Source: an uncultured Lachnospiraceae bacterium (GTDB lineage Bacteria > Bacillota > Clostridia > Lachnospirales > Lachnospiraceae). From it: a stretch of DNA of 64,000 nt. Shown one piece after another: positions 20,322 to 63,956 of this stretch. The position numbers and the translations under genes are program-made. The stretch is taken from positions 1 through 64,000 of the forward strand of contig CADBEN010000004.1 of NCBI GenBank assembly GCA_902793685.1, given 5' to 3'. The notes beneath the pieces are model-generated. The model saw only the letters and a list, made by a program, of their open reading frames with translations, had not been told where the DNA came from and searched no databases. Position 1 is the stretch's first letter. Each line of letters opens with the position of its first letter.

Positions 20322-20325
20322 TACG

Positions 20326-20383
20326 GTACAACAGGCAGGGGCTTTCGCGATGCGAAAGCCCCTGCCTGTTGTACGATATTTTT
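20326..20383 (+). terminator. Strong terminator of purA
   Basis: A perfect 23-bp stem (20326-20348 with 20352-20374), three-base loop GAT, then GATATTTTTC. It begins five bases after the purA stop and lies between convergent genes. Confidence 0.95.
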
Positions 20384-22726: not shown

Positions 22727-22759
22727 GGATCTTCTTCCTTTTACGTTCGTTTCCCGTTC

Positions 22760-22789
22760 AGTATACTCTGAATGTGGGACGATTGACAA
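22760..22789 (-). promoter_or_regulatory. Promoter of the ABC-F gene
   Basis: Reading leftward, TTGTCA (22789-22784), 18 bases, TATACT (22765-22760). Its -35 box overlaps that of the rex promoter on the other strand. Confidence 0.65.
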
Positions 22790-49918: not shown

Positions 49919-51202
49919 ATGATCGATATCAGATTTCTCAGGGAGAACCCGGATGCAGTCAAGGAGAATATCCGGAAGAAGTTCCAGGACGCGAAGCTTC
50001 CGCTGGTAGATGAAGTCATCGCGCTGGACGAGGAGAGCAGAAAGACGCAGGCAGAGGCAGATGACCTCCGCTCAAAGAGAAACAAGGTCTCCAAGCAGAT
50101 CGGCGCCCTGATGGGTCAGGGAAAGAAGGAAGAGGCAGAGAAGGTCAAGGCAGAGGTCGCCGCTATCAACGCAAGGATCGCGGAGCTTGAGCCGAAGGAG
50201 GCAAAGATCGCGGACCGGATCCGTGAGATCATGCTGGTGATCCCGAACATGATCGATCCCTCTGTCCCGATCGGCCCCGACGATTCCTGCAACGTCGAGA
50301 TCGAAAAGTTCGGCGAGCCGGTGGTCCCGGATTTCGAGATCCCGTACCACACCGAGATCATGGAGCGCTTCAACGGCATCGATATGGACGCTGCCGGAAA
50401 GGTCGCAGGCAACGGCTTCTACTATCTGCTGGGGGATATCGCACGCCTGCACTCCGCAGTGCTGTCCTATGCCCGCGACTTCATGATCGACCGCGGCTTC
50501 ACCTATGTGATCCCGCCCTTCATGATCCATTCCAACGTCGTCACCGGCGTCATGAGTTTCCCGGAGATGGAAGCAATGATGTACAAGATCGAGGGCGAGG
50601 ATCTGTACCTGATCGGTACTTCCGAGCATTCCATGATCGGCCGCTTCATCGATACTCTGAACGACGAGGAGAAGCTTCCCTACACGCTGACCTCCTATTC
50701 TCCCTGCTTCCGCAAGGAGAAGGGCGCTCACGGCATCGAGGAGCGCGGCGTCTACCGCATCCATCAGTTCGAGAAGCAGGAGATGATCGTCATCTGCCGT
50801 CCGGAAGATTCCATGACCTGGTACAACAAGCTGTGGAAGAACACCGTAGACCTGTTCCGCTCCCTGGACATCCCGGTCCGCACCCTGGAGTGCTGCTCCG
50901 GCGACCTGGCGGACCTGAAGGTCAAGTCCTGTGACGTGGAGGCGTGGAGCCCGCGCCAGAAGAAGTATTTCGAGGTCGGCAGCTGCTCGAACCTGGGCGA
51001 TGCGCAGGCGCGCCGTCTCCGCATCCGCGTGAAGGGCGCAGACGGAAAGAAGTATCTTGCCCACACCCTGAACAACACGGTGGTGGCTCCGCCGCGTATG
51101 CTGATCGCGTTCCTGGAGAACAACCTGCAGGCGGACGGCAGTGTCCGCATTCCGGAGGTCCTGCGTCCGTACATGGGCGGAAAGGACAAGCTGGAAGCCT
51201 GA
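49919..51202 (+). CDS. serS: Seryl-tRNA synthetase
   Basis: This 427-residue class II synthetase has an N-terminal tRNA-binding coiled coil (about 30-105, rich in Lys and Glu) and the catalytic core. Motif 2 is SPCFRKEKGAHGIEERGVYR and motif 3 lies around GSCSNLGDAQARRLRIRVK. TSEHSMIGRF, and HTLNNTVVAPPRMLIAFLEN near the end, are typical; many family members have TLNGSGLAVGR there, and this NTVVAPPR form marks a clostridial subgroup. TGGAGGG precedes the start. Two large palindromic elements follow. Confidence 0.95.
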   Translation: MIDIRFLRENPDAVKENIRKKFQDAKLPLVDEVIALDEESRKTQAEADDLRSKRNKVSKQIGALMGQGKKEEAEKVKAEVAAINARIAELEPKEAKIADRIREIMLVIPNMIDPSVPIGPDDSCNVEIEKFGEPVVPDFEIPYHTEIMERFNGIDMDAAGKVAGNGFYYLLGDIARLHSAVLSYARDFMIDRGFTYVIPPFMIHSNVVTGVMSFPEMEAMMYKIEGEDLYLIGTSEHSMIGRFIDTLNDEEKLPYTLTSYSPCFRKEKGAHGIEERGVYRIHQFEKQEMIVICRPEDSMTWYNKLWKNTVDLFRSLDIPVRTLECCSGDLADLKVKSCDVEAWSPRQKKYFEVGSCSNLGDAQARRLRIRVKGADGKKYLAHTLNNTVVAPPRMLIAFLENNLQADGSVRIPEVLRPYMGGKDKLEA

Positions 51203-51224
51203 TCTCCCGCACAACATATCTTCG

Positions 51225-51399
51225 AATGACGGAGTAAGCCGCTCCGAAACCCTTGATCTACCTTCGTGATCCGTTCGGAGGCATCTGTCATTTTCGCTCG
51301 GTCGACTTTGCATGATGTGCAGTCTCGGTCGCGAAAATGACAGCCTCCGCGGATCACTCAGTCGATCTGCGACGGTTTCGGCAGCGGCTTACTGTCATT
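51225..51399 (+). repeat. Large palindromic repeat, copy A
   Basis: Copy A is a 175-base imperfect palindrome just after serS. Nested stems, from outside in: GTAAGCCGC (51234-51242 with 51384-51392), CCGAAACC (51244-51251 with 51374-51381), TGATCCG (51267-51273 with 51350-51356), CGGAGGC (51276-51282 with 51343-51349), CTGTCATTTTCGC (51285-51297 with 51331-51343) and an apical GACT/AGTC stem (from 51304 and to 51323). The core from ACCCTTGATCTACC to CAGTCGATCTGCGA is shared with copies B and C, but the stem bases differ in both arms together. Together with copy B it fills the 412-base gap between convergent genes serS and rqcH; I see no ORF there. Confidence 0.9.
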
Positions 51400-51423
51400 C
51401 TCTCTCTATGATTTTCCCTGCAG

Positions 51424-51601
51424 AAAAGCCCTGGGACCTCTGACAAAACCATCGAAGATCGACCGAACATTCCGCGGATATTGCAGTTTCCGCGACCGAG
51501 AGTATGCCGCAAGGCCACTCGACCGAGCGGAAACTGCAGATATATCCGAGCGGAATGTGAGGGTAGATCAAGGGTTTTGGAAGAGGTCTTCCAGGGCTTT
51601 T
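51424..51601 (-). repeat. Large palindromic repeat, copy B (inverted)
   Basis: The same family as copy A, in the opposite orientation and 24 bases away. Outer stems: AAAAGCCCTGG (51424-51434 with 51591-51601), ACCTCT (51436-51441 with 51582-51587), AAAACC (51445-51450 with 51573-51578). The middle stem is TGCAGTTTCCGC (51482-51493 with 51527-51538), different in sequence from copy A but paired at the same place. The apical stem encloses GAGTGGCCTTGCGGCATACTC read on the - strand. The A-rich left and T-rich right ends suit a two-way terminator; it ends 14 bases from the rqcH stop. Confidence 0.9.
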
Positions 51602-51614
51602 ATTGATAGGAAAA

Positions 51615-53360
51615 TCAGGTTTTCGGGATGTCGGGGCGGGGGTGGGCCATCATCGACCAGTTCGTGTGGTAGATGACGAATCCCGGCGGTCCTCCCGTTG
51701 TCTTTTTTACATGGCGGCGCTGGATGTAGTCCACCTCGACCTTGTCGCCGTCCCGGCCCTTCGAGTACCAGGCCGCCAGGGCAGCCGCTTCCTCAAAGGT
51801 GCGGTCCGGGAGCTCCTGCTGGCCGCACTTGACGATCACGTGGGAACCGGGGATCCCCTTCGCGTGGAACCACCAGTCGCTGCCGGAGGCGATCCTGAAG
51901 GTGATCTCTTCATTCTGGTAATTGTTTTTCCCGACGTAGATGTCGAAGCCGTCGCTGGAGACAAAGTGAAGCGGCTTTGAGACGATCTTCTGTTTTTTGC
52001 CTTTCACGACGTGGCGGCGGATAAACTTGTAGTCCGCCAGTTCTTCCCGGATCTGGTTCAGGTCGCTTTCCTCCGTCGCAAGGTCCAGGGAGGTCAGGAT
52101 GCTGGCAAGGTGGGCGTTCTCGCTGCGCGTCTTTTCCAGCTCCTCGGTGACCGCTTCCTCGGTCCGTTTCAGCTTCGCGTAGCGGTCGTAGTATTTCTTC
52201 GCGTTTTTGGACGCGGTGAGCTGCTCGTCCAGCGGGATCCGGATCTCCTTGCCGCCGTCATAATAGTTCTCGCAGACCAGCTCTTTCTCACCGCCGGAGA
52301 GCATGTAGCCGTAGGTGCTGATCAGGTCGCCCCAGACCCGGAACTTGTCCTTTTTCTCCGTGTCCTTCAGCTGCTTCTCCTGAAGGATGAGCTTCCTTGA
52401 ACTCCGCTCCAGAGCGGTGGTCACCAGCTTCCGGAGATCCGTGCTTTTCTGGCGGATGCGGCTTGCGCTGTCCCGGAGAGAATAGAAGTCGTAGAGCAGT
52501 CTGCTGACGGACTCATAGGGCTTCACAGTGTATCCGCCGCCGGAAAAAGCGGACAGGGGAAGGGAGGAGAATTCCTCCGGACGGTCGTTCTTTAAATACA
52601 TGGTGGGCGAAAAATGCCCGGACCGGATCTCTTCCATATATAAAGTGAAGGAGCGGTACAGACGGGCCAGTTCTTCCTCCGTGAGAGACGCGCTGTCCTG
52701 CCGCGGATCCAGTCCCGCCGCGGAAAGGATCTCCGACGCCACCACAGGGGAGATGCCTGAGAAGGAGGTGTAGACGGCCTTGTCCAGGGGAACATTTCCC
52801 GCGCCCCGGAGCGCGGCGGCGAAGACATCAGGATCTGCGGAAAGGGGATCTGCCTTCTTCAGCTGTTCGGGAAGGAACCAGGTGCGTCCCGGCAGGACCT
52901 CCCGCAGGGAACTCACGGTGGCGGGGACATGCCGCATGCTGTCGATGATCAGGTCATCCTCGTCCGTGAAGATGATGTTTGAGTGCTTTCCCATCAGCTC
53001 GATGTAGAGCCGCTTTTTTGTCAGGTCGCCCAGTTCGTTCAGCTGCTCGGTGGTGATGCGGATGATGCGTTCGAGCCCGGGCTGGCTGATCTCAGTGATC
53101 CGCCCGGAACCGATGTGTTTCCGGAGCAGCATGCAGAAGCCGGGCGCTGCCGGCGGAGAGGGCTTATTTTCTTCGCTCAGGTAGATGAGCGGGAGAGATG
53201 CGTCGCAGGAGATCAGGAGACGGTGGTTCTGCGCGTGGTTTTTGATGGTCAGGAACAGCTCGTTTTTTTCCGGCATGGCGATCTTCGAGATGTGCCCGCC
53301 CTCGACCGCGTCTTTCAGCTCCCGGACCAGGTTTGCAATGACGATTCCGTCAAGAGCCAT
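51615..53360 (-). CDS. rqcH: NFACT / RqcH protein (Rqc2 homologue, ribosome quality control)
   Basis: This 581-residue protein begins MALDGIVIANLVRELKDAVE, the NFACT-N start (older name fibronectin-binding protein A). It has central coiled-coil helices (about 300-440) and the NFACT-R/DUF814 domain near the C-terminus (GSDWWFHAKGIPGSHVIVKC, then AAWYSKGRDGDKVEVDYIQR). In Bacillus RqcH binds stalled 50S-peptidyl-tRNA and recruits alanyl-tRNA to add Ala tails. The DR pair needed there (residues 97-98) reads Glu97-Arg98 here. The start at 53360 follows AAAGGA; the frame continues upstream without a ribosome site. It is divergent from topA. Confidence 0.92.
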   Translation of the reverse strand: MALDGIVIANLVRELKDAVEGGHISKIAMPEKNELFLTIKNHAQNHRLLISCDASLPLIYLSEENKPSPPAAPGFCMLLRKHIGSGRITEISQPGLERIIRITTEQLNELGDLTKKRLYIELMGKHSNIIFTDEDDLIIDSMRHVPATVSSLREVLPGRTWFLPEQLKKADPLSADPDVFAAALRGAGNVPLDKAVYTSFSGISPVVASEILSAAGLDPRQDSASLTEEELARLYRSFTLYMEEIRSGHFSPTMYLKNDRPEEFSSLPLSAFSGGGYTVKPYESVSRLLYDFYSLRDSASRIRQKSTDLRKLVTTALERSSRKLILQEKQLKDTEKKDKFRVWGDLISTYGYMLSGGEKELVCENYYDGGKEIRIPLDEQLTASKNAKKYYDRYAKLKRTEEAVTEELEKTRSENAHLASILTSLDLATEESDLNQIREELADYKFIRRHVVKGKKQKIVSKPLHFVSSDGFDIYVGKNNYQNEEITFRIASGSDWWFHAKGIPGSHVIVKCGQQELPDRTFEEAAALAAWYSKGRDGDKVEVDYIQRRHVKKTTGGPPGFVIYHTNWSMMAHPRPDIPKT

Positions 53361-53448
53361 GACTGCTTTTTCCTTTCTTTGGGATTTCCCGAACATCATA
53401 TCATAGCTCGGTTTTCGTGTCACTTCCGGAGCAATGCAAAAACGACTC

Positions 53449-53477
53449 TTGTCAACCGGAAAAAAATGTTGTATGTT
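53449..53477 (+). promoter_or_regulatory. Promoter of topA
   Basis: TTGTCA (53449-53454), 17 bases including an A tract, TATGTT (53472-53477), about 80 bases before the start. Confidence 0.55.
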
Positions 53478-53559
53478 AACTACCGTTTTAACCTGCATTA
53501 CTCAGACACCCGGGCGAGGTGTGTCTGATCATCTTAAAAAAAGAGAGAATAAAACGTAT

Positions 53560-55644
53560 ATGGCATCAAACAATCTTGTCATCGTCGAGTCTCCGGCGAA
53601 GGTAAAGACCATCAAAAAATTCCTCGGCAGCAACTACACTGTGGACGCAAGCCAGGGCCATGTGCGGGATCTTCCGAAGTCCCAGATGGGGATCGACGTG
53701 GATCACGACTATGAGCCGAAATACATCACGATCCGCGGCAAGGGAGAGATCCTCGCGAAGCTCCGCAAGGAAGTGAAAAAGGCGGACCGCATTTATCTTG
53801 CAACGGACCCTGACCGCGAGGGAGAGGCAATCAGCTGGCATCTTTCCAAGGCACTGAAGCTGGACGAGTCCGGGAAAAAGGTGAGCAGGATCACCTTCAA
53901 CGAGATCTCGAAGAACGCAGTGCGGGAAGCGCTGAAGAATCCCAGGGACATCGACATGGCCCTGGTGGACGCCCAGCAGACACGGCGCATCCTGGACCGC
54001 ATGGTGGGATATAAGATCAGTCCGCTGCTCTGGGAGAAGGTGAAGCGGGGCCTGTCCGCGGGACGCGTGCAGTCTGTGGCGCTTCGCATGATCTGCGACC
54101 GCGAGGCGGAGATCGAGGCCTTTATTCCGGAGGAGTACTGGACGCTGGAGGCGGATCTTCAGTCCTCCGGCTCCGGAAAGCCCCTGACCGCAAGGTACAG
54201 CGGAAAAGGAAAGTCCAAGAGTGAGCTGAAGAATGCGGCCGAGTGCGACGCGGTGATCCGCGGGTGCAGAGACGGGGAGTTCCGGGTCAAAGAAGTGAAG
54301 ACCAGCGACCGGATCCGCAAAGCACCCCTTCCCTTCACGACCTCCACGCTGCAGCAGGAAGCCAGCAAACAGCTGAACTTCCCGACCCAGAAGACGATGC
54401 GCATCGCGCAGCAGCTCTATGAGGGGGTCGAGGTCGAGGGCCGCGGCACCATCGCCCTGATCACTTATCTACGTACCGACAGCACCCGTGTCTCCGACGA
54501 GGCGGATCTGGCGGCCCGGAACTATATCGCAGAGCATTACGGAAAGGAATATGCCGCGGACGCGCCTGCGGCGGGAAAGGCCGGACAGAAGATCCAGGAT
54601 GCCCACGAGGCGATCCGTCCCATCGACATTTCCCTGTCACCGGCAGAGGTGAAGTCCTCCCTGCAGCGGGATCAGTTCCGTCTGTATCAGCTGATCTGGA
54701 AGCGTTTTACCGCAAGCCGGATGCGCCCGGCCGTCTATTCCGCCACCAACGTCCGCACTGAGTGCGGCGCAAACGTTTTCCAGCTTTCCGGTTCTTCCCT
54801 GAAGTTTGCGGGATTCATGAACGTCTACACGGACGATGAGGAAGAGAAGGAGCCCGGAAATTCCGCACTGCTGAAGCTGACGGAGGGCCAGGTGCTTTCA
54901 CTGAAGGAGTTCCGGAAGGAACAGCACTTCACCCAGCCGCCGGCGCATTACACCGAGGCCAGCCTCGTCCGCGCGCTGGAGGAGCAGGGCATCGGACGCC
55001 CCAGCACCTACGCGCCCACCATCTCGACGATCCTTGCCCGCAGGTACATCACCCGCGAGCAGAAGAATCTGTACGTGACGGAGATCGGCCAGGTAGTCAA
55101 CAAGATCATGGTCGAAAACTTCCCGGCGATCGTGGACCGGAAGTTTACCGCGAATCTGGAGACGCTCCTGGACTCTGTCGGGGAAGGCAGCGTCGACTGG
55201 AAGACCGTCGTCAGGAACTTCTATCCGGACCTTGCCGCAGCGGTGGAGACGGCGGAAAAAAATCTGGAAAGCGTGAAGATCGCGGACGAGGAGAGCGACG
55301 AGATCTGCGACGTCTGCGGACGCCGCATGGTCATAAAGTACGGCCCCCATGGAAAGTTCCTTGCATGTCCCGGATTCCCGGAGTGCCGGAACACCAAGCC
55401 CTATCTTGAAAAGATCGGCGTGAACTGCCCGAAGTGCGGGAAGGCGCTGGTCCTGCGGCATTCGAAGAAAGGCCGCGTTTATTACGGCTGCGAGGGCAGC
55501 CCGGAATGCGATTTTATGAGCTGGGCGAGACCGGCGGAGAAGCCATGCCCCCGCTGCGGCGGCTATATGGTGGTCCGCGGGAAGAAGCTTGTCTGCGCCG
55601 ACCGGGAGTGCGGATATTCGGAAAAAGCGCCGGAAGAGGAATAA
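53560..55644 (+). CDS. topA: DNA topoisomerase I
   Basis: This 694-residue type IA topoisomerase relaxes negative supercoils. TOPRIM: LVIVESPAKVKTIKKFLG and TDPDREGEAISWHL. Active-site Tyr303 in ITYLRTDSTRVS. Three C-terminal zinc ribbons follow (CDVCGRRM...CPGFPEC, CPKCGKAL...CEGSPEC, CPRCGGYM...CADREC). ATG 53560 gives MASNNLVIVESPAK; the frame reaching 53434 includes the promoter and is not translated. The ribosome site AAAGAGAG is weak. It is separate from topB at 13 kb, so the window carries two type IA enzymes. Confidence 0.96.
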   Translation: MASNNLVIVESPAKVKTIKKFLGSNYTVDASQGHVRDLPKSQMGIDVDHDYEPKYITIRGKGEILAKLRKEVKKADRIYLATDPDREGEAISWHLSKALKLDESGKKVSRITFNEISKNAVREALKNPRDIDMALVDAQQTRRILDRMVGYKISPLLWEKVKRGLSAGRVQSVALRMICDREAEIEAFIPEEYWTLEADLQSSGSGKPLTARYSGKGKSKSELKNAAECDAVIRGCRDGEFRVKEVKTSDRIRKAPLPFTTSTLQQEASKQLNFPTQKTMRIAQQLYEGVEVEGRGTIALITYLRTDSTRVSDEADLAARNYIAEHYGKEYAADAPAAGKAGQKIQDAHEAIRPIDISLSPAEVKSSLQRDQFRLYQLIWKRFTASRMRPAVYSATNVRTECGANVFQLSGSSLKFAGFMNVYTDDEEEKEPGNSALLKLTEGQVLSLKEFRKEQHFTQPPAHYTEASLVRALEEQGIGRPSTYAPTISTILARRYITREQKNLYVTEIGQVVNKIMVENFPAIVDRKFTANLETLLDSVGEGSVDWKTVVRNFYPDLAAAVETAEKNLESVKIADEESDEICDVCGRRMVIKYGPHGKFLACPGFPECRNTKPYLEKIGVNCPKCGKALVLRHSKKGRVYYGCEGSPECDFMSWARPAEKPCPRCGGYMVVRGKKLVCADRECGYSEKAPEEE

Positions 55645-55833
55645 TACGCTATTATTATTACATTATAGAAAAACTGAATGACAGAAATCTTGAGTTTCGT
55701 TTGCTAAAGTGTTAAACTTGTAAATTAAGGTAAAAGTCTTAATTTTCAGGCAGCGAAACTGCCGATCGATGGTTCAGTCGGATTTACCTTGAACTAGAAC
55801 AACCGGGATGTAGACAGCCTGCGGAGGGTAAAA

Positions 55834-56622
55834 ATGAGTGTCCAATTGCTCGACAAAACAAGAAAGATCAATCAGTTATTGCAGAACAGTGATGCGAATA
55901 AGGTGATTTTCAGCGACATCTGCGCGGAGCTTGCGAAGATCTTCGGCGGACATACGCTGGTCATCAGCAGCAAGGGAAAAGTCCTCGGAGCCGGGGTGTC
56001 CGGAAGGAAGGAGGATACCAGCAGACTGCTCCCGGAACGGGTCGGCAGTTTTGTGGATTCGCTCCTGAACGAACGTCTTCTTTCTATCCTCTCGACTAAG
56101 GAGAATGTGAATCTGGAGACGCTGGGATTCAACAAGGACGAGGAGGACACCTATCAGGCAATCGTCTCCCCGATCTGCATTTCGGGAGACCGCCTCGGAA
56201 CACTGTTCAGCTATAAAAAGGGCGCCGGCTTCGGCCTGGACGACATCATCATCAGCGAGTATGCCGCGACGGTGATCGGCATGGCCATGCGCCAGAGCGT
56301 GAACGAGGAGTACGCGGAGGAAGCGCGGAAGATCCAGATCGTCCGCAGCGCCATCTCCACGCTGAGCTTTTCCGAGATGGAAGCGATCCTTCACATCTTC
56401 GACGAGCTGAAGGGAAGCGAGGGCATTCTTGTGGCGAGCAAGATCGCGGACCGTGTCGGCATCACCCGCTCGGTGATCGTCAACGCACTGCGGAAGTTCG
56501 AGAGCGCAGGCGTGATCGAGAGCCGCTCCAGCGGAATGCGGGGGACTTACATCAAGGTCCTGAACGACGCTGTCTTCGATGGGATCAAGAAAATCCGCGA
56601 GGAGGATGAGAATCTTCAGTAG
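55834..56622 (+). CDS. codY: GTP-sensing transcriptional repressor CodY
   Basis: This 262-residue global regulator senses GTP and branched-chain amino acids. The N-terminal GAF domain (MSVQLLDKTRKINQLLQ, then KVIFSDICAELAKIFGGHTL and GDRLGTLFSYKKGAGFGLDD) and the C-terminal winged helix (ILVASKIADRVGITRSVIVN, ALRKFESAGVIESRSSGMRG) are complete. In clostridia and bacilli it represses amino-acid uptake and carbon-overflow genes in rich conditions. GGAGGGTAAAA precedes the start. In many Bacillota codY stands near topA, as here. Confidence 0.96.
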   Translation: MSVQLLDKTRKINQLLQNSDANKVIFSDICAELAKIFGGHTLVISSKGKVLGAGVSGRKEDTSRLLPERVGSFVDSLLNERLLSILSTKENVNLETLGFNKDEEDTYQAIVSPICISGDRLGTLFSYKKGAGFGLDDIIISEYAATVIGMAMRQSVNEEYAEEARKIQIVRSAISTLSFSEMEAILHIFDELKGSEGILVASKIADRVGITRSVIVNALRKFESAGVIESRSSGMRGTYIKVLNDAVFDGIKKIREEDENLQ

Positions 56623-56663
56623 GTTAACGGTTTATGCCGGAAAGAAAATTCCTGAAATCTGTG

Positions 56664-56694
56664 AATGACGGGGCTTGTCCCCGTCATTTATTTA
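56664..56694 (+). terminator. Terminator of codY
   Basis: A 10-bp perfect stem AATGACGGGG/CCCCGTCATT (56664-56673 with 56679-56688), five-base loop, then TTATTTAT. The -35 box of the rpsB promoter lies inside it. Confidence 0.75.
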
Positions 56695-56703
56695 TGCTAT
56701 ATT
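56675..56703 (+). promoter_or_regulatory. Promoter of rpsB-tsf
   Basis: TTGTCC (56675-56680), 17 bases, TATATT (56698-56703), with TGC just before the -10 (extended -10). It overlaps the codY terminator hairpin. Confidence 0.68.
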
Positions 56704-56829
56704 GTTACAGTTGCAGGCCTCTCGGGGCCAGAATACACGTCCGCGGTCCGGAAACCGGGTGCTGCCCAGTCCTGGCAGTGGATTCCAGGGAAAACGGACG
56801 GAAGATCAAACCATACGGAGGTAAATAAA
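56704..56829 (+). promoter_or_regulatory. Structured leader of rpsB
   Basis: About 120 untranslated bases contain several short hairpins: GGCC...GGCC near 56715-56733, CCGG-AAA-CCGG near 56747-56757 and CTGCC...GGCAG near 56762-56778. Ribosomal protein S2 often controls its own mRNA through such leaders. This assignment is inference; no known leader motif was identified. Confidence 0.4.
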
Positions 56830-57594
56830 ATGGGCGTAGTTTCTATGAAGCAGTTACTTGAAGCAGGTGTGCATTTCGGTCATCAGACCAGAAGATGGAA
56901 CCCCAAGATGGCGCCGTACATCTACACCGAGCGCAACGGGATCCACATCATCGACCTTCAGAAGACGGTCGGCATGGTCGACGACGCGTACAAGGCAGTC
57001 GAAGAGATCGTCGCCAACGGCGGCACCATCCTCTTTGTCGGCACCAAGAAGCAGGCTCAGGACGCGATCCGTGAGGAAGCGACCCGCTGCGGTATGTTCT
57101 ATGTCAATGAGAGATGGCTCGGCGGCATGCTCACCAACTTCAAGACCATCCAGTCCCGCATCAAGAGACTTCAGAAGATCGAAGAGATGAGCCAGGACGG
57201 CACCTTCGACGTTCTTCCGAAGAAGGAAGTCATCGCTCTGAAGAAGGAGTGGGAGAAGCTGGAGAAGAACCTGGGCGGCATCAAGGAGATGAAGAAGGTC
57301 CCGGATGCGATCGTCATCATCGACCCGAAGAAGGAGCGCATCTGCGTTTCCGAGGCTCACGCTCTGAACATCCCGCTGATCGGCATCGCTGACACCAACT
57401 GTGATCCGGAAGAGCTGTCCTGGATCATCCCGGGCAACGACGACGCGATCCGTGCCGTCAGACTGATCGTCTCCAAGATGGCTGACGCTGTCATCGAGGC
57501 AAACCAGGGCAACGAGCAGCAGGCGCAGGTCGAGGCTGAGGGTGAGGACACCGCAGCAGCAGCGATCGCAGAAGCTATCCAGAACGCGCAGTAA
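56830..57594 (+). CDS. rpsB: 30S ribosomal protein S2
   Basis: This 254-residue protein starts [80 protein letters not shown], and [20 protein letters not shown] with [10 protein letters not shown] are all standard S2 sequence. An acidic, Gln-rich tail closes it. ATG 56830 follows GGAGGTAAATAAA; the longer frame to 56665 overlaps the codY terminator. It is followed by tsf, the usual pair. Codon use is strongly biased as expected. Confidence 0.97.
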
Positions 57595-57616
57595 TTTTCC
57601 CAAGGAGGAACGAACA

Positions 57617-58558
57617 ATGGCAGCAGTTACAGCAGCACTCGTAAAAGAACTCAGAGAGATGACCGGCGCCGGCATGATGGACTGCAAGAAGGCCCTGACC
57701 GCAACCGACGGCGATATGGACAAGGCAGTTGATTTCCTTCGTGAGAAGGGCCTGGCAGGCGCACAGAAGAAGGCCGGCCGCATCGCGGCAGAGGGCATTG
57801 TCGACACCATGGTCAGCGAGGACGGCAAGAGCGCAGTCATCGTCGAGGTCAATGCAGAGACCGACTTCGTCGCAAAGAACGAGAAGTTCCGCAACTATGT
57901 CGCAGAGGTCGCAAAGCAGGCTCTGACCACCACCGCAGCTGACATGGACGCATTCTTCGCTGAGCCGTGGGCAGGCGATCCGGCCCTGACCGTGAAGGAA
58001 GAGCTTTCCAGCATGATCTCCGTCATCGGTGAGAACATGAACATCCGCCGCTTCCAGCAGGTCAAGGAAGACAACGGCGTTATCGTCTCCTACATCCACG
58101 CAGGCGGCAAGATCGGCGTCCTGGTCGATGTCGAGACCAACGTTGTCAACGACGCTGTCAAGGAGATGGCTAAGAACGTCGCGATGCAGGTCGCAGCTCT
58201 GAAGCCGCTGTACACCAACAGCAAGGAAGTCAGCGCTGACTATATTGCACGCGAGAAGGAGATCCTCCTTGCACAGATCATGAATGATCCGAAGGAAGCT
58301 TCCAAGCCGGAGAAGGTCATCCAGGGCATGATCCAGGGCCGTATCAACAAGGAATTGAAGGAGATCGTCCTTCTGGACCAGGTCTACGTCAAGGCTGAGG
58401 ACGGCAAGCAGAGTGTTGCGAAGTACGTCGAGCAGGTCGCCAAGGAGCAGGGCGCGAAGATCGCTGTCAAGGGATTTGTCCGCTACGAGACCGGCGAGGG
58501 CATGGAGCACAAGTCTGAGAACTTCGCAGAGGAAGTTGCGAAGCAGATGGCGAAGTAA
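57617..58558 (+). CDS. tsf: Elongation factor Ts
   Basis: This 313-residue nucleotide exchange factor for EF-Tu starts MAAVTAALVKELREMTGAGM, MDCKKALTATDGDMDKAVDF, LREKGLAGAQKKAGRIAAEG, the classical EF-Ts N-terminal UBA-like domain. VEVNAETDFVAKNEKF is the EF-Tu-contact region with its TDFV core. AGGAGGAACGAACA sets the start at 57617. A terminator follows 21 bases after the stop. Confidence 0.97.
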   Translation: MAAVTAALVKELREMTGAGMMDCKKALTATDGDMDKAVDFLREKGLAGAQKKAGRIAAEGIVDTMVSEDGKSAVIVEVNAETDFVAKNEKFRNYVAEVAKQALTTTAADMDAFFAEPWAGDPALTVKEELSSMISVIGENMNIRRFQQVKEDNGVIVSYIHAGGKIGVLVDVETNVVNDAVKEMAKNVAMQVAALKPLYTNSKEVSADYIAREKEILLAQIMNDPKEASKPEKVIQGMIQGRINKELKEIVLLDQVYVKAEDGKQSVAKYVEQVAKEQGAKIAVKGFVRYETGEGMEHKSENFAEEVAKQMAK

Positions 58559-58579
58559 TCTGCCTCACTGAAGAAACAA

Positions 58580-58624
58580 AAGACCGGGAAATCTGGAAAG
58601 CCGGATTTCCCGGTCTTCTTTTTT
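58580..58624 (+). terminator. Terminator of rpsB-tsf
   Basis: A 14-bp perfect stem (58580-58593 with 58604-58617), ten-base loop, then CTTTTTT. Confidence 0.93.
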
Positions 58625-58655
58625 CCGGCCGCCGGTCCATATTCACGCGCACTTC

Positions 58656-58684
58656 TTGCAGAACGCACCGAGATGCAGTAGAAT
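58656..58684 (+). promoter_or_regulatory. Promoter of a 36-codon gene
   Basis: TTGCAG (58656-58661), 17 bases, TAGAAT (58679-58684), 39 bases before the small ORF. Confidence 0.65.
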
Positions 58685-58723
58685 AGTTAAGGACTTGCAC
58701 TATATATGGCGGAGGGGCGCGAT

Positions 58724-58834
58724 ATGCAGGAATCAGAGAACGACAAATGGATCGAGGAACATCCGTGGCTGAACGAACAGGTAGAGATCGACGATGTCCT
58801 GCGTTACAGCCTGGATGAGATCCGGGTGTCGTGA
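58724..58834 (+). CDS. Small acidic protein (36 aa)
   Basis: A 36-codon reading frame starts MQESENDKWIEEHPWLNEQV and ends DEIRVS, with 11 acidic against 3 basic residues and two Trp in WIEEHPW. Support for it being real: a promoter at 58656-58684, the ribosome site GGAGGGG seven bases before ATG, and a 17-bp terminator just ten bases after the stop. No family recognised; it has no signal peptide or membrane segment. It could bind a basic partner or be part of a larger regulatory set with the next acidic protein. Confidence 0.62.
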   Translation: MQESENDKWIEEHPWLNEQVEIDDVLRYSLDEIRVS

Positions 58835-58843
58835 GAGGAATCG

Positions 58844-58883
58844 CATCAAAAAGACCGCCGGGAAAACGGCGGTCTTTTTGATG
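58844..58883. terminator. Two-way terminator after the 36-codon gene
   Basis: A perfect 17-bp stem (58844-58860 with 58867-58883), loop GGAAAA, with AAAAA in the left arm and TTTTT in the right arm, so it can act in both directions. Confidence 0.88.
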
Positions 58884-59101
58884 TGCAGCGTCTGTTTTGC
58901 CGCCTCTGAGGCAGAAGGAGCGCGGAGAAGCAAGGCGACCCGGTCTTCGGAGCGGGGACCCGGAAGGAAATATAAAGCTGTTTTCAGTGCCGGGAAGAGA
59001 ACGGCAGGAGACGGGGGACTGAGCAGGAGCGCTTTCCCGGCACACAGATCTGTGGTATCATGGAGAAACCGCAAAACGATCATTCAGGAGGAGAATACCC
59101 T

Positions 59102-59413
59102 ATGGATTTTAAAAAGTATCTTGGAAAGCACGTGCTGGACAATGTTGAGGATGTTATCGTCCCCGACGTGGATCTGGTGGACGATCTCGGCAACATGCTG
59201 AATGTATATTTCCCTCTGGAGCAGTTCGAGGACGCGCCGGAGAAGCTTCTCCGCACGGGACTGCTGGTGTTTTACGACGTCGACCGCAGCGTCACGGACA
59301 TCCTGACCACGGCGATGGTCCTGGAAGAAGGAAAGAAGCCGGCGGAGATGGATCCGGTGATGTGCGAGGACGAGGAACTTATCGCGGCAGTTCTGGACCG
59401 TATCCTGGACTGA
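59102..59413 (+). CDS. Conserved-looking acidic protein of unknown function (103 aa)
   Basis: The ATG at 59102 follows AGGAGGAGAATACCCT, so the product is 103 residues: MDFKKYLGKHVLDNVEDVIV, then YFPLEQFEDAPEKLLRTGLL and DPVMCEDEELIAAVLDRILD. It is rich in Asp, Glu and Leu, has a predicted mix of beta and helix, and no membrane part. A TGGTATCAT extended -10 stands at 59057-59065. I do not recognise the family. It is flanked by the 36-residue acidic protein and the aldolase gene, with separate signals on both sides. The 267-base gap before it holds only the terminator and that promoter. Confidence 0.7.
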   Translation: MDFKKYLGKHVLDNVEDVIVPDVDLVDDLGNMLNVYFPLEQFEDAPEKLLRTGLLVFYDVDRSVTDILTTAMVLEEGKKPAEMDPVMCEDEELIAAVLDRILD

Positions 59414-59543
59414 ATGCTTCCCGGCCGGGACTTTTCGTTTTCGGCAAAACGAAAATGTATACAGGGCAGATCCCGCCGGAACATGTTATGATATTTACGT
59501 CAGATAATTTTGGGTTCCGTCGCCGCGACGGGGAAAGGAAGAC

Positions 59544-60200
59544 ATGAAGTTTTTTATTGATACCGCGAATGTAGAAGAAATCAGAGAAGCAGCAGCCATG
59601 GGCATCATCGCAGGCGTCACCACCAATCCGTCGCTGATCGCGAAGGAAGGCAGAGACTACATGGAGACCCTGAAGGAGATCACCACCATCGTCGACGGAC
59701 CGATCTCCGGCGAGGTCAAGGCCAGCACCACGAAGGCAGAGGACATGATCGTCGAGGGACGCGCCATCGCGGCGATGCACCCGAACATGGTCGTAAAGAT
59801 CCCGATGACCACCGAAGGTCTGAAGGCTGTCAAGGTTCTTGCTTCCGAGGGCATCAAGACCAACGTCACCCTGATCTTCTCCGCAGGCCAGGCCCTTCTT
59901 GCGGCACGCGCAGGCGCAACCTATGTTTCTCCCTTCCTCGGAAGACTGGACGACATCTCCACCGACGGCATCGCCCTGATCGAGGATATCATGGATATCT
60001 TCAGCGTCTACGCTGACATTGACACCCAGGTCATCTGCGCTTCCGTCCGCCATCCGATCCACATCCTTCAGTGCGCGAAGACCGGCGCGGACATCGCGAC
60101 CGTCCCGTACAAGGTCCTGATGCAGATGGTGAAGCACCCGCTGACCGACATCGGCATCGACAAGTTCAAGAAGGACTACGAGGCAGTTTTCGGAAAGTAA
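59544..60200 (+). CDS. Fructose-6-phosphate aldolase / transaldolase-like protein
   Basis: This 218-residue TIM-barrel protein is of the small transaldolase (TalC/FSA) group: [33 protein letters not shown], the Schiff-base lysine in [37 protein letters not shown] and [20 protein letters not shown]. Members act as transaldolase or cleave fructose 6-phosphate; sequence alone does not decide. GGGGAAAGGAAGAC precedes the start, and an extended -10 (TGTTATGAT, 59485-59493) stands upstream. rpe, another pentose-phosphate gene, is 11 kb away. Confidence 0.93.
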
Positions 60201-60236
60201 AGAACCGGGACCGGCTTCCTTTTTAAGAAAAAACCG

Positions 60237-60305
60237 GAAGGAGCCTTCACATAAAGAACACAGACAGTCTGTATTCTTTTTGTGAGGGCTCCTTCTCTGT
60301 TTTTG
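60237..60305 (+). terminator. Terminator of the aldolase gene
   Basis: A long interrupted stem (GAAGGAGCC 60237-60245 with GGCTCCTTC 60287-60295, and inner TCACA, AAAGAA and ACAGAC arms paired across the loop), then TCTGTTTTT. Confidence 0.88.
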
Positions 60306-60317
60306 CGCGAGCCATTC

Positions 60318-60326
60318 TGATATGAT
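60318..60326 (+). promoter_or_regulatory. Extended -10 promoter of the two-GTPase operon
   Basis: TGATATGAT (TGn then TATGAT). No clear -35. Transcription would begin near 60333. Confidence 0.5.
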
Positions 60327-60337
60327 AGATATAAATA

Positions 60338-60358
60338 ACTCATGACTTAGTCACGAGT
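60338..60358 (+). promoter_or_regulatory. Operator-like palindrome of the two-GTPase operon
   Basis: A 21-base palindrome with half site ACTCATGACT, central T (60348) and matching half AGTCACGAGT; nine of ten positions pair. It lies just after the -10 box, where a repressor would block transcription, 37 bases before the first start codon. Confidence 0.6.
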
Positions 60359-60394
60359 ATCCATACGCCAGACACTGTGAAAGGAGGGCGGACG

Positions 60395-61744
60395 ATGCCG
60401 GAGAACGGAAACGGAACGATCGATTATGCAGCCATCGATTACGAGCATTTCGATCTTGAACAGTATCTTGAAGAAGTGCGCGATGACATCCCGCGGCCCA
60501 ACATCATGATCTGCGGCGGGACCGGCGTGGGAAAAAGCAGCCTCGTCAACAGCATCTTCCGCATGGAGCTTGCGGAGGTCGGTTCCGGCGGAGTCCGCGG
60601 GACTGAGGGGATCCGCCGTTATACCACGAAGGACGCGCTGGTGACGCTCTACGATTCCGAGGGATATGAGATCGGCGGCCCCGCGCAGGAGCATTATTAT
60701 GCGGATATTCTCGGCGTCATCGGCGAGAAGCGCAGGAAAGCGGCGGGGCAGATCTCCGAGCAGATCCACGAGGTCTGGTACTGTGTCTCGGCCGGAGGCA
60801 AGCGCTTTCTGGATGCGGACAGAGACGTGATCGAGGCGGTCCGCCTGGCGGGGGTCCCGGTGTGCGTGATCCTGACGAAGGTGGACACGGTCGATGAAGA
60901 AGAACTGGAGCAGCTGAAGCGGGAGGTGCGGAGATCTCTGCACAGAGGAAGGCTCGGCAGGATCCAGGCTGCCGCCGGGAAAAACGAACCGCGGAGACAG
61001 CCGGAGGAGATCGAGATCTTCACCTGGTCTGCGATGCTGGACGACGCGCCGCCGGAGATCCGGGACGCCTACGTGCAGCGGGAACCGCTGCTTTCCTGGG
61101 CTTCTGAACACCTGGACGAATCCCTGCGCTACGCGCTTCTTTCCGCTGTGAAGGGCGGGATCCGGGAAAAGCGGGAGCTTCTGGTAAAGGAAGTGATCCC
61201 GAAGTATATGCTTCGGGCCGGCGGCATCGTCACGGCCACTTCCTTTGTGACGGTCCCCTTCACCGATTCGGTGGCATTGACGGGACTGCAGACGCTGATG
61301 GCGGGAGAGATCATCCGCTTTTTCGGCATCGACTCCGACGTGAAGGACGTGGCGAAGGGACTGGCCGGGGCTTCACTGGTCTCTTACTGCGGGAGAACGC
61401 TTTCCACTCAGCTGATCTCCCTGATCCCGGTGGTGAACGGCGCCGTGAAGACAGCGGTGAACCTTTCCGTGGCGGTCTCCCTGACGGGGACTCTGGGCGC
61501 GGCGATGGCGTATCTCTGCGAACAGTACCTCACCTTCTGCGTGGATCTGAACGGGAAGGCAAACCTGCCGTTCTCCGATTTTCTGACGGAGGAACGGATC
61601 CTGGCCGCCATGAAGCTGGTGCAGGGAAGCCTCGGAAAGGACGGAGAGCGCGTCAGCGGGAAAACGACCGCGAAAGAGCTGGCGCAGTATTTTGTGAAAC
61701 AGATGCTGAATGATCTGATGAAGGGGAGCGGATGGAAATCCTGA
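60395..61744 (+). CDS. GTPase with C-terminal DUF697-like membrane domain
   Basis: This 449-residue GTPase has P-loop CGGTGVGKSSLVNSIF (G1, about 41-49), a Thr in the switch region (RGTEGIRRYTT), G3 DSEGYE (the usual DxxG) and G4 LTKVDTV. The second half (AGGIVTATSFVTVPFTDSVA, LTGLQTLMAGEIIRFFGIDS, GAVKTAVNLSVAVSLTGTLG) is like DUF697/YcjF domains, which associate with membranes. I start at ATG 60395 because AAAGGAGGGCGG precedes it. The next gene overlaps by 13 bases and encodes a second GTPase, so the two are translated together. Possible roles include dynamin-like membrane work or envelope stress. Function not known. Confidence 0.85.
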   Translation: MPENGNGTIDYAAIDYEHFDLEQYLEEVRDDIPRPNIMICGGTGVGKSSLVNSIFRMELAEVGSGGVRGTEGIRRYTTKDALVTLYDSEGYEIGGPAQEHYYADILGVIGEKRRKAAGQISEQIHEVWYCVSAGGKRFLDADRDVIEAVRLAGVPVCVILTKVDTVDEEELEQLKREVRRSLHRGRLGRIQAAAGKNEPRRQPEEIEIFTWSAMLDDAPPEIRDAYVQREPLLSWASEHLDESLRYALLSAVKGGIREKRELLVKEVIPKYMLRAGGIVTATSFVTVPFTDSVALTGLQTLMAGEIIRFFGIDSDVKDVAKGLAGASLVSYCGRTLSTQLISLIPVVNGAVKTAVNLSVAVSLTGTLGAAMAYLCEQYLTFCVDLNGKANLPFSDFLTEERILAAMKLVQGSLGKDGERVSGKTTAKELAQYFVKQMLNDLMKGSGWKS

Positions 61745-62835
61745 CGGCAAATGTTCTTCTGATCGGCCGCTCTGCGGCCGGAAAAAGCTCGCTCTTAAAC
61801 TATCTGTTCGGGCAGGAGATCGAGCGTACCGGCGCGGGCGGCGCCTGCACCGGGCGGGGGATCTTTGAGCACAGCTTTATGGTGCATGAGAGATTCCGGC
61901 TCCGGGTTTCCGACACCTGGGGGCTGGAACCGGACAAGGCAGAGGAGTGGGAGGAGCTGATCCTTCAGGATATCCGGCGCCATGACGCGGGCCGGATCGC
62001 GGACTGGTATCACACCATTCTCTACTGCATCAACCTGAATACGGCAAGGATCGAAGAGTTCGAGCGCGGTATCCTGCGGCGCCTGACGGCGGAGGGGAAC
62101 CATATCCTCGTGGTGCTGACCCATGCCGACTGCGCCGGTGCGGCAGAGACCACAGCGGCATTCCGCACCCTGCTGCTTCAGGACGGCATTCCGGCGGACA
62201 GCATCGTCCCCGTCTGCAGTGTCGTGAGGAAGACCATCGGCGGCACCGGGGGGAATCAGTTCGGAAGGGAGCTCCTTCTGGACCGGATCCGGGAAGGACT
62301 GTGGGAGCGCATCGTGGAGCGGGCGCCGGGAAGCGCCCGGGCAGAAGCGGAGGCGCTGATCGACCGGGCGGAAGCAGCCTGCGCTGCCTACGCGGAGAAG
62401 TACATTACGCTTTTCAACATGCACTCGGACAGGAACTACCAAAAGCTTAACCGGATCTGCGGCGAGGTCCTCGGGAGATGCCTTTCCGACGTGCAGCGCT
62501 GCTACGAGGACCGGGTGACGGAATCGGTGCGCTTTTACCTGCAGCTCGTGAACCGCGGGGATCCGGATGGATTTTCCGCAAACACGAAGGAGCGGATAGA
62601 GCACGCAATCCCTCTGAACTTCCGGAAGAACTGGGAGGAAAAGATTTCGGAGAACGTGCGGGGGATCCTGTTCAGCTTCGTGCCGGGCGTAAACATTCTG
62701 TTCCCGCGGCGGCTCCTGCAGAAAAACCGCGCCCGGTACGTAAACCGTGTCCGCGCAGTGACCCGGAAGATGCGGGCATCCCTGCCGGAAGCCGAATCCC
62801 GCCTCCGCACATCCCTCGAACATCTTTCGGTATGA
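61732..62835 (+). CDS. Second GTPase of the pair, with helical C-terminal region
   Basis: This 367-residue P-loop GTPase has ANVLLIGRSAAGKSSLLNYL (G1, 12-20), CTGRGIF switch, G3 SDTWGLE and a G4-like LTHADCA where NKxD or TKxD is usual; the histidine there is odd and may loosen guanine specificity. After the G domain (about 1-195) come long helices and a hydrophobic patch (RGILFSFVPGVNILFPRRLL, about 312-331). It resembles its partner only in the G domain. It begins 13 bases inside the upstream gene, with GGGGAGCGG as ribosome site. Its stop codon touches a palindromic terminator. Confidence 0.82.
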   Translation: MEILTANVLLIGRSAAGKSSLLNYLFGQEIERTGAGGACTGRGIFEHSFMVHERFRLRVSDTWGLEPDKAEEWEELILQDIRRHDAGRIADWYHTILYCINLNTARIEEFERGILRRLTAEGNHILVVLTHADCAGAAETTAAFRTLLLQDGIPADSIVPVCSVVRKTIGGTGGNQFGRELLLDRIREGLWERIVERAPGSARAEAEALIDRAEAACAAYAEKYITLFNMHSDRNYQKLNRICGEVLGRCLSDVQRCYEDRVTESVRFYLQLVNRGDPDGFSANTKERIEHAIPLNFRKNWEEKISENVRGILFSFVPGVNILFPRRLLQKNRARYVNRVRAVTRKMRASLPEAESRLRTSLEHLSV

Positions 62836-63001
62836 AAAAAAGACCGTCCTCAAAACCCTTGATCTACCTTCGTGATCCGCTCGGATGTATCTGAGCTTTT
62901 CGTTCGGTCGAGTGGCCTTCGGCATACTCTCCGTCACGAAAAGCTCAACATCCGCGGATCACTCAGTCGATCTGCGATGGTTTTGAGAGACGGTTTTTTT
63001 T
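62836..63001 (+). repeat. Large palindromic repeat, copy C, acting as terminator
   Basis: The third copy of the family at 51.2-51.6 kb. Its outermost arms are A7 (62835-62841) with T8 (62994-63001), ACCGTC (62843-62848 with 62989-62994) and TCAAAACC (62850-62857 with 62979-62986), a classical two-way terminator. The loop holds the shared core: ACCCTTGATCTACCTTCGTG, ATCCGCTCGG, a TGAGCTTTTCGT/ACGAAAAGCTCA stem (62892-62903 with 62935-62946), the apical GAGTGGCCTTCGGCATACTC, and CGCGGATCACTCAGTCGATC. It begins at the GTPase stop and ends 26 bases before the convergent esterase stop. Confidence 0.9.
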
Positions 63002-63026: not shown

Positions 63027-63767
63027 TTACAGGATATGGTCAAGGAAATAGCGGATTTGCTTCCGCCACCACGGCCAGTCGTGGTTCACGTCGAAGCCCC
63101 AGTAATCCACCCAGGCCTTGATGCCCTTGGAGCGGAGGATAGGATCCAGACGGCGGGTGCCGGCAAGCAGCGGGCCTTCCCATGCGCCCTGACCGACACA
63201 GATGCAGATATCGCTGTTGTTGTACATCTCAATGTACGGGTGATCCTTGGGCATCATGGAGAGGCTTGCGCAGGGATCGTTGCGGTAGACCACATCGTCC
63301 ATGTAGCCGTTGTACATGTCGTAGGTGTCATAGATGCCGGAGCAGGATATGCATCCGCGGAACAGGTCCGGACGGCGGAAGAAGAAGTTCGCCGCATGGT
63401 AAGCGCCCATGGAGAATCCCGTGGTCAGGATGCGGTCGTTGTTTCCCATGAGGTAATGGATCTTCGGGACCAGCTCATTGCAGATATAGTTGTACCACTG
63501 CTCGTAGCGGCGGATGCGCCAGTAGGGATCGCCGTTCACGTCGGAGACTGTCTCCGCGTCGATAGTGTCCAGGGTAAAGACACGGATCCGGCCGTCATTC
63601 AGGTAATCCGCCAGGGTGTCGTCGAACATGTGGAAGCCTTCCCACTCGAAAAAACGGCCGTTCTGGCAGGGGAATGCGAGGACCGGGACACCGGCCCAGC
63701 CGTAGACCTTGATCTCCATATCGCGGCCAAGTTCATTGCTGTAATCTTTATAGTATTCTGTCTGCAT
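63027..63767 (-). CDS. Alpha/beta-hydrolase esterase (esterase D-like, PF00756 type)
   Basis: This 246-residue hydrolase begins MQTEYYKDYSNELGRDMEIK. The nucleophile serine is in TGFSMGAYHAANFFFR, and the catalytic histidine is near the end in GFDVNHDWPWWRKQI; an acid residue probably lies between them. VLAFPCQNGRFFEWEGFHM replaces the usual oxyanion segment. No signal peptide, so cytoplasmic. The start at 63767 follows AGAGG; the frame continues to 63956 through low-complexity repeat DNA and is not translated there. It has its own promoter and a 160-base leader. The substrate is unknown; similar proteins are annotated as esterases. Confidence 0.85.
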   Translation of the reverse strand: MQTEYYKDYSNELGRDMEIKVYGWAGVPVLAFPCQNGRFFEWEGFHMFDDTLADYLNDGRIRVFTLDTIDAETVSDVNGDPYWRIRRYEQWYNYICNELVPKIHYLMGNNDRILTTGFSMGAYHAANFFFRRPDLFRGCISCSGIYDTYDMYNGYMDDVVYRNDPCASLSMMPKDHPYIEMYNNSDICICVGQGAWEGPLLAGTRRLDPILRSKGIKAWVDYWGFDVNHDWPWWRKQIRYFLDHIL

Positions 63768-63825
63768 GTTTTTTCCTCTTTGTGTTATTGGTTGCTGCAG
63801 AGCTTTCTGCGGTGCAGGTCCGGCG

Positions 63826-63905
63826 CTGCCTTCTGTCGGCGCTGCCTTCTGTCGGCGCTGCCTTCTGTCGGCGCTGCCTTCTGTCGGCACTGCCTTCTGT
63901 CCGGG
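63826..63905. repeat. Five tandem 16-bp repeats in the esterase leader
   Basis: CTGCCTTCTGTCGGCG is repeated head to tail at 63826, 63842, 63858, 63874 and 63890 (the last two slightly changed). On the esterase strand each unit is a small GCC...GGC hairpin. The period is not a multiple of three, so it is unlikely to be coding. The 233 bases from 63768 to the end hold only these repeats and the promoter. Confidence 0.93.
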
Positions 63906-63927
63906 CTGCCGCCGCCTGTACGGGTTC

Positions 63928-63956
63928 AGTTTACCACATCCCTGTTTGGCTTGCAA
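63928..63956 (-). promoter_or_regulatory. Promoter of the esterase gene
   Basis: Reading leftward, TTGCAA (63956-63951), 17 bases, TAAACT (63933-63928). The transcript would include the five repeats in its leader. Confidence 0.65.

Follow-up and report, generated by a model that had tools for sequence, protein, structure and literature searches.

Stem-loop repeat families confined to one species or group are already known (PMC2267715). In Streptococcus pneumoniae, the SPRITE, BOX, and RUP families are described as interspersed, foldable repeats, mostly under 200 bp, that resemble miniature inverted-repeat transposable elements (MITEs) (PMC3049150), and among the repeats of the Bacillus cereus group, bcr1-3 have been called MITE-like, while bcr10 and bcr18 are listed with a conserved secondary structure (PMC3446304). 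Repetitive extragenic palindromes (REPs) are thought to be mobilized by a single-strand (Y1) transposase (PMC3733652), and the integrases that act on integron attC sites are reported to read extrahelical bases on one side of the folded site, their other contacts being essentially non-specific (PMC3053210). Here, a family of long palindromic hairpins was analyzed that has three copies (A, B, and C) in the first 64,000 nucleotides (the window) of contig CADBEN010000004.1 from an uncultured Lachnospiraceae bacterium (assembly GCA_902793685.1). We lean toward the view that the family consists of short, non-autonomous palindromic insertion elements, MITE-like in behavior and dispersed in the genome of one species.

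The three copies had been noticed in an initial annotation of the window; they were found at the positions given there, with copy B inverted, and all of the arm pairs quoted for A, B, and C are present:

51225..51399, + strand: copy A (L009), full hairpin, model match at 51241-51384, apical hairpin of type 2
51424..51601, - strand: copy B (L008), full hairpin, model match at 51440-51583, apical hairpin of type 1, A-rich/T-rich outer arms
62836..63001, + strand: copy C (L001), full hairpin, model match at 62847-62989, apical hairpin of type 1, A-rich/T-rich outer arms

The four core segments listed as shared are also generally present, with ATCCGYTCGG and CAGTCGATCTGCGA being inexact in copy B. 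When folding was compared to dinucleotide shuffles, copy A reached a z of -10.3 and copy C a z of -12.0, with none of 200 shuffles as good in either case.

Copies were first collected by BLASTN with copy C and by a pattern search of the bacterium's own genome. Covariance model R1 was built from 11 of them and added a divergent twelfth, L041, and model R2 contains all 12. In the 2.54-Mb genome, the family thus amounts to 12 full-length copies, two collapsed (short) copies, and one remnant of a 3′ end (L012, at C13:38203). Applied to this genome, R2 recovered the 12 full copies at E ≤ 7.1e-25 and the two short forms at E values of 0.003 and 0.007, with no further match at E ≤ 5 among the 150 of 1113 first-look candidates that were scored; the covariance-model search proposed in the initial annotation therefore did yield further copies. 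The full copies are spread over 9 of the 63 contigs (10 when the short forms are included), seven in forward and five in reverse orientation. The conserved unit measures 136-144 nt in the model, and the whole hairpin forms a rod of about 165-190 nt with a G+C content of 0.50-0.63. A conserved unit that is short (under about 200 bp), non-coding, interspersed, and multi-copy is in keeping with a MITE. The two collapsed copies share the same kind of junction:

C19:29637-29671: collapsed copy L215, junction at GATCT, outer hairpin alone retained
C11:4190-4224: collapsed copy L216, junction at GATCT, outer hairpin alone retained

These short forms are best read as deletion products in which the basal-stem GATCT repeats were the end points. 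The 4-bp basal stem concerned covaries among copies, being mostly GATC/GATC, GCCC/GGGC in L002 and L041, and GTTC/GAAC in L003, so that the deletion route is open to copies of the GATC type only. An insertion of the inner module with a GATCTRC target duplication was also considered and rejected, the apparent direct repeats being this covarying stem. One intergenic region (C13:38018-38438) holds two full copies in opposite orientation, L011 and L006, together with the remnant L012; such crowding in a single spacer, as also seen for A and B, perhaps points to a preference for insertion near existing copies.

Described from the outside inward, with loop boundaries that depend on the folding model, the hairpin opens with a copy-specific distal stem, whose 5′ arm carries one or two extra unpaired nucleotides in 8 of 14 copies (by eye). 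Next come CCNYCTYC, conserved out to about position -9, and, in most copies, AAAACC/GGTTTT, followed by a basal internal loop (CTT versus TGCGA), the covarying 4-bp stem, a small loop, and a stem of about 11 pairs. Further in, a TC bulge leads to a 6-bp stem and an ATC bulge to a 12-bp stem, which is followed by the loop TCGGTCGA/TCGGTC; the apical hairpin is of type 1 in nine copies, of type 2 in A and L010, and replaced in L041. Several of the bulges are on the 5′ arm. The unpaired columns are largely fixed, with 18 of 24 identical in at least 11 of the 12 full copies, and the basal-motif spacings are 20 and 72-73 nt in all full copies except L041 (19 and 66). The element as a whole is an inverted repeat, but its outer ends are specific to each copy.

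The stems behave differently from these fixed positions. In an alignment of the 12 full copies that was fitted to the structure and hence leans toward it, pairing is maintained in 97.2% of 641 cells, both sides change in 35 of 54 pairs, and double-change cells number 112 against a shuffled mean of 30.7 (none of 500 shuffles reached 112), with a single one-sided change. The strong covariation seen in the initial annotation thus extends to the repeated family and is not at chance level. Shifting the partner by one to three columns lowered pairing to 37-43%, and an earlier MAFFT alignment of 11 copies gave double changes in 29 of the 54 pairs; the count of further standard pair types showed no excess (51 versus 49.1 shuffled, a value reached in 149 of 500 shuffles). 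With 10 pairs assigned to conserved loops left out, 512 of 521 stem cells are Watson-Crick pairs, two are G-U, and seven are mismatched; the window has no tRNA that could serve as a G-U control. Between copies (55 copy pairs, without L041), the mean difference is 29.6% for stem pairs and 10.3% for the other counted columns. Even in the closest pair, L003 and L005, all of the differences (4 of 44 stem pairs) are both-sided, two of them being A-T/T-A swaps. Changes at adjacent pairs are clustered, with a mean run of 1.86 against 1.57 when permuted (0 of 500).

Covariation is widely regarded as the strongest indication of a functional RNA, and the initial annotation concluded from it that the folded form is under selection. 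This does not follow: template switching in replication is reported to create and repair perfect inverted repeats and to carry changes between their arms (PMC8794818), so that matched arms alone do not prove that a folded RNA is selected for. A stronger sign of selection than the covariation is the conservation of unpaired positions, since copying between arms would tend to erase internal loops, and fixed unpaired letters therefore suggest selection on something. The run clustering fits template switching, and shared descent could cause it too; the scarcity of G-U pairs is compatible with a process at the DNA level and also with selection acting on both strands. With nearly all changes double, nearly no G-U pairs, and the conserved information carried by unpaired letters, the family lends itself well to asking whether selection or a DNA-copying process lies behind the matched changes of the arms. 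These observations also bear on a rather unlikely alternative, that of a structured RNA or two-way terminator transcribed from either side, with stems selected on both transcripts and loops that bind a protein or RNase. The G-U scarcity would follow if both strands must fold, and 24 of the 38 new pair types are of the transition type, a share near the 61.0% given for instantaneous compensatory changes in ribosomal RNA (PMC8794818); this last similarity does not separate a DNA from an RNA process and decides nothing.

The family appears to be restricted to its own genome among those searched. The genome sets used (98, 195, 397, and 391 genomes) overlap, and the bacterium's own genome is in each. 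It was the only positive by BLASTN (1 of 98), by R1 (1 of 195, six congeners being among the misses, with 16 first-look candidates scored per genome), and by R2 across the class (1 of 391, with eight candidates scored per genome, a depth at which it gave 8 of its 12 copies). A basal pattern gave 12 matches in it, none in a backward control, and none in the 396 other family genomes. All six congeners, five of which are at least 95% complete, were in the BLASTN and R1 sets, and two (G004 and G005) were in the 397-genome pattern set. Copy B had no blastn match in plasmids or phages. As candidate relatives, 32 loci from a genome-contig collection and two viral loci picked by pattern were rejected when the covariance model returned none at E ≤ 1 other than the control L041, as were three further viral pattern loci (none at E ≤ 10); the genome-contig pattern recovers 8 of the 12 own copies only and near records may be omitted, so that relatives may still exist there. 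Among 4227 Rfam models, none matched in the window at gathering scores or over 51180-51640 at E ≤ 1, and no description of the family was found in Rfam or in open-licence PMC literature, in line with the statement in the initial annotation that no named family fits. That annotation had counted an absence from relatives against its proposals, and no copy was found in the relatives searched.

A comparison of loci with and without the element, which it also suggested, identified three syntenic loci that lack it in the congeners examined. At the secD/F-tgt locus (L004), six of six congeners keep the genes adjacent without the element; at the dnaA-rpmH locus (L005), five congeners have the region without it; and at the L002 locus, it is absent from all five congeners examined. 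The same distribution makes it very improbable that the family is old, vertically inherited, and lost in relatives, with stem differences that reflect ordinary slow compensatory evolution. A between-copy stem-pair difference of up to 43% would suit such an origin, but no copy was found in the six congeners or in other family genomes searched, and the exclusively both-sided differences between L003 and L005 imply that intermediates are short-lived.

Because the copies lie in both orientations beside ordinary genes, were not found in the congeners, and have three counterpart loci without an insertion, we read them as insertions. This agrees with the third option of the initial annotation, a palindromic mobile element; a repeated family with strongly covarying stems and the lack of an Rfam match are borne out as well. 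Several points weigh against the insertion reading. Gene order around A, B, and C differs in the congeners, so that these loci allow no clean synteny comparison, and the congeners, at about 65-86% DNA identity, are too diverged for an exact empty site. No target-site duplication is recognizable across copies (by eye). The copies differ from one another at 9-43% of stem pairs, more than expected for a recent burst. No mobilizer was identified in a search that covered Y1 transposases, with other transposase families and integrases not searched for. The genome has six matches to Y1 (PF01797), one of them intact and several at contig ends. None adjoins a model-found copy, some being cut off by contig ends, and nothing ties Y1 to the element: five of the six are on contigs (C38, C44, C2, C8, and C49) with none of the 14 model places, while on C11 a single Y1 fragment is separated from two model places by about 4 kb or more.

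The outer stem adds a further difficulty for the insertion reading. Among 14 copies, identity at positions -1 to -9 is 0.487 against 0.263 shuffled (0 of 2000), and at -10 to -20 it is 0.292 against 0.263 (78 of 2000), while in 12 of the 14 copies the flanks beyond the conserved part show complementarity at p < 0.05, the other two giving 0.052 and 0.067. Stems past about -9 are thus complementary without clear sequence conservation, which a simple MITE does not explain. One alternative, which we regard as unlikely, is that the element enters the apex of existing hairpins, including terminators, the distal stem being the target and the conserved unit ending about 9 nt outside AAAACC/GGTTTT. The end of conservation near -9 within flanks that go on pairing in most copies is what such entry would produce, and the outer arms are terminator-like in B, C, and both short forms. 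However, the dnaA-rpmH region has DnaA-box inverted repeats in three congeners, an AT-rich hairpin of 9 bp in G002, and a hairpin of 8 bp in G005, all of them unlike the distal stem of L005; nothing resembling that stem was found in the five congener replication-origin (oriC) regions, and the extra nucleotides on the 5′ arm lie at a similar distance in 8 of 14 copies whatever the gene orientation (by eye), as if the stem were the element's own. The choice is between a distal stem that belongs to the element and an element that inserts into hairpin apexes; the comparison at oriC favors the former, and the end of conservation favors the latter.

Gene context is based on genes called by codon usage, with the window as the training sequence. 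In the window, the copies are flanked by the following genes:

49919..51202, + strand: seryl-tRNA synthetase gene (Pfam), left flank of A and B, convergent
51615..53498, - strand: gene for an NFACT-type protein (Pfam), right flank of A and B, convergent
61732..62835, + strand: gene without a Pfam match, left flank of C
63027..63956, - strand: putative esterase gene (Pfam), right flank of C, convergent

Copy C starts directly after the stop of its upstream gene. The location between convergent genes emphasized in the initial annotation is true of all three copies in the window, but genome-wide it applies to only 6 of the 12 full copies (L001, L003, L008, L009, L010, and L041); five are in tandem context (L002, L004, L006, L007, and L011) and one, L005, is in divergent context. 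The short form L013 is convergent, and the left side of L015 is unclear. Besides those in the window, the neighbors recognized by Pfam are ordinary: a LacI-family regulator, a PfkB kinase, SecD/F, Tgt, an HU-type protein, a TRCF-domain (Mfd-like) protein, PTS enzyme I, a phosphoribosyltransferase, a laccase-type protein, PAP2, a TPP enzyme, a permease, DnaA, and ribosomal protein L34; for three flanking proteins, Pfam gave no match. L005 (C25:9711-9854) lies inside oriC, between dnaA with DnaA-box-like TTATCCACA repeats and rpmH.

This context returns to the question of termination. The idea that the element is a terminator whose loop carries a structured module is a poor fit to L005, between the divergent dnaA and rpmH, and to L002 and L004, where the end of the upstream gene has a separate hairpin next to it (by eye). 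At L004 that hairpin lies right behind the secD/F stop, and at L002 it sits between the element and the right-hand gene. The same three loci argue against a structured RNA or two-way terminator, as do the mixed orientation relative to neighboring genes, the lack of an Rfam match, and the short forms, whose retention of the outer hairpin only implies that these sites can do without the inner module. Speaking for it are the convergent half of the full copies, the position of the rest 3′ of a gene (except L005), and the A-rich/T-rich outer arms of several copies. By eye, a G+C-rich stem with a T run behind it at a gene's 3′ end, on both strands, was seen in the full copies B, C, L010, and L041 and in one short form, L216, and was not seen in L002, L004, L005, or L007; the description of the elements as nested inside terminator hairpins is fair for B and C, given their A-rich/T-rich outer arms, and is no general rule. 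A terminator pattern scan of 51150-51700 gave one weak site, in the 3′ arm of A, against 0.5 expected, and it allows loops of 3-8 only and is therefore blind to full hairpins.

If the copies are insertions, their fixed loops and free stems could be explained by a trans-supplied enzyme that makes its contacts with the folded hairpin at internal loops and bulges, which would keep these conserved and leave the stem letters free. By analogy to attC, this recognizer would probably act on folded single-stranded DNA. Template switching during replication might transfer a change from one arm to the other, mispaired copies might be filtered out, or both might occur. Copies would persist at the least harmful sites, mostly 3′ of genes, and some may later serve as two-way terminators, as suggested for the pneumococcal SPRITE (PMC3049150). 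The full combination, a mobile element whose long single-stranded DNA hairpin is read by shape, the reader being a transposase or recombinase that belongs to neither the REP nor the attC class, with arms kept complementary by template switching, is put forward as a doubtful proposal: if true, template switching in bacteria would have left a natural record in this family, and the mobilizer would be an undescribed hairpin-reading enzyme. Strains of the same species would allow a direct test of one-step double changes versus intermediates, and the fixed loops offer a handle for a mobilizer search.

Two other repeats were observed in the window. At 20325-20375, between the convergent genes 19041-20321 (+) and 20666-22789 (-), about 23 bp pair perfectly around a short loop, forming a hairpin whose stem far exceeds the usual length of terminator stems. 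At 60334-60382 lies a repeat of about 45 bp with further copies on C5, C55, C19, and C43; it holds a palindrome resembling the ATGACT...AGTCA(T/C)GAG hairpin beside the Y1 transposase fragments L026-L029 and is perhaps the remnant of an IS200-like end.

Compared to known systems, the family comes close to several and coincides with none of those considered. As described in PMC3049150, SPRITE, BOX, and RUP are likewise largely limited to one species and a near relative, and SPRITE is terminator-like and enriched near gene 3′ ends; it is, however, a single 18-bp duplex with a U-rich tract, whereas the present element forms a rod of about 165-190 nt in which several internal loops are fixed and the stems covary freely. 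The repeats bcr1-bcr18 are similarly group-specific and intergenic (PMC3446304), although they belong to another host group and are likened here by description, without sequence comparison. REPs and their associated transposases (REP/RAYT) share palindromic repeats with alternative complementary stem letters; as characterized in PMC3733652, REPs are 20-40 bp long, carry GTAG or CGTC at one end, and often have G-T pairs, in contrast to the far longer element here, with its 2 G-U pairs in 521. No conserved GTAG/CGTC foot tag was seen; GTAG was seen by eye in 8 of 12 copies, there on the opposite strand and only within the basal internal loop. Integron attC sites (PMC3053210) are also folded palindromes with bulges on one arm, to which the 5′-arm bulges and free stem letters correspond, but no cassette array was seen here and the copies are dispersed in both orientations. 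Template-switch (quasipalindrome) correction, as reported in PMC8794818, resembles the present case in its one-step matched changes of both arms, with several neighbors changing together, and differs in being a mutation process, not a family, that alone would not keep asymmetric internal loops. Interspersed, foldable repeats of a single species or group are already known, and we rate as new here the greater length, the free covarying stems, and the fixed loops.

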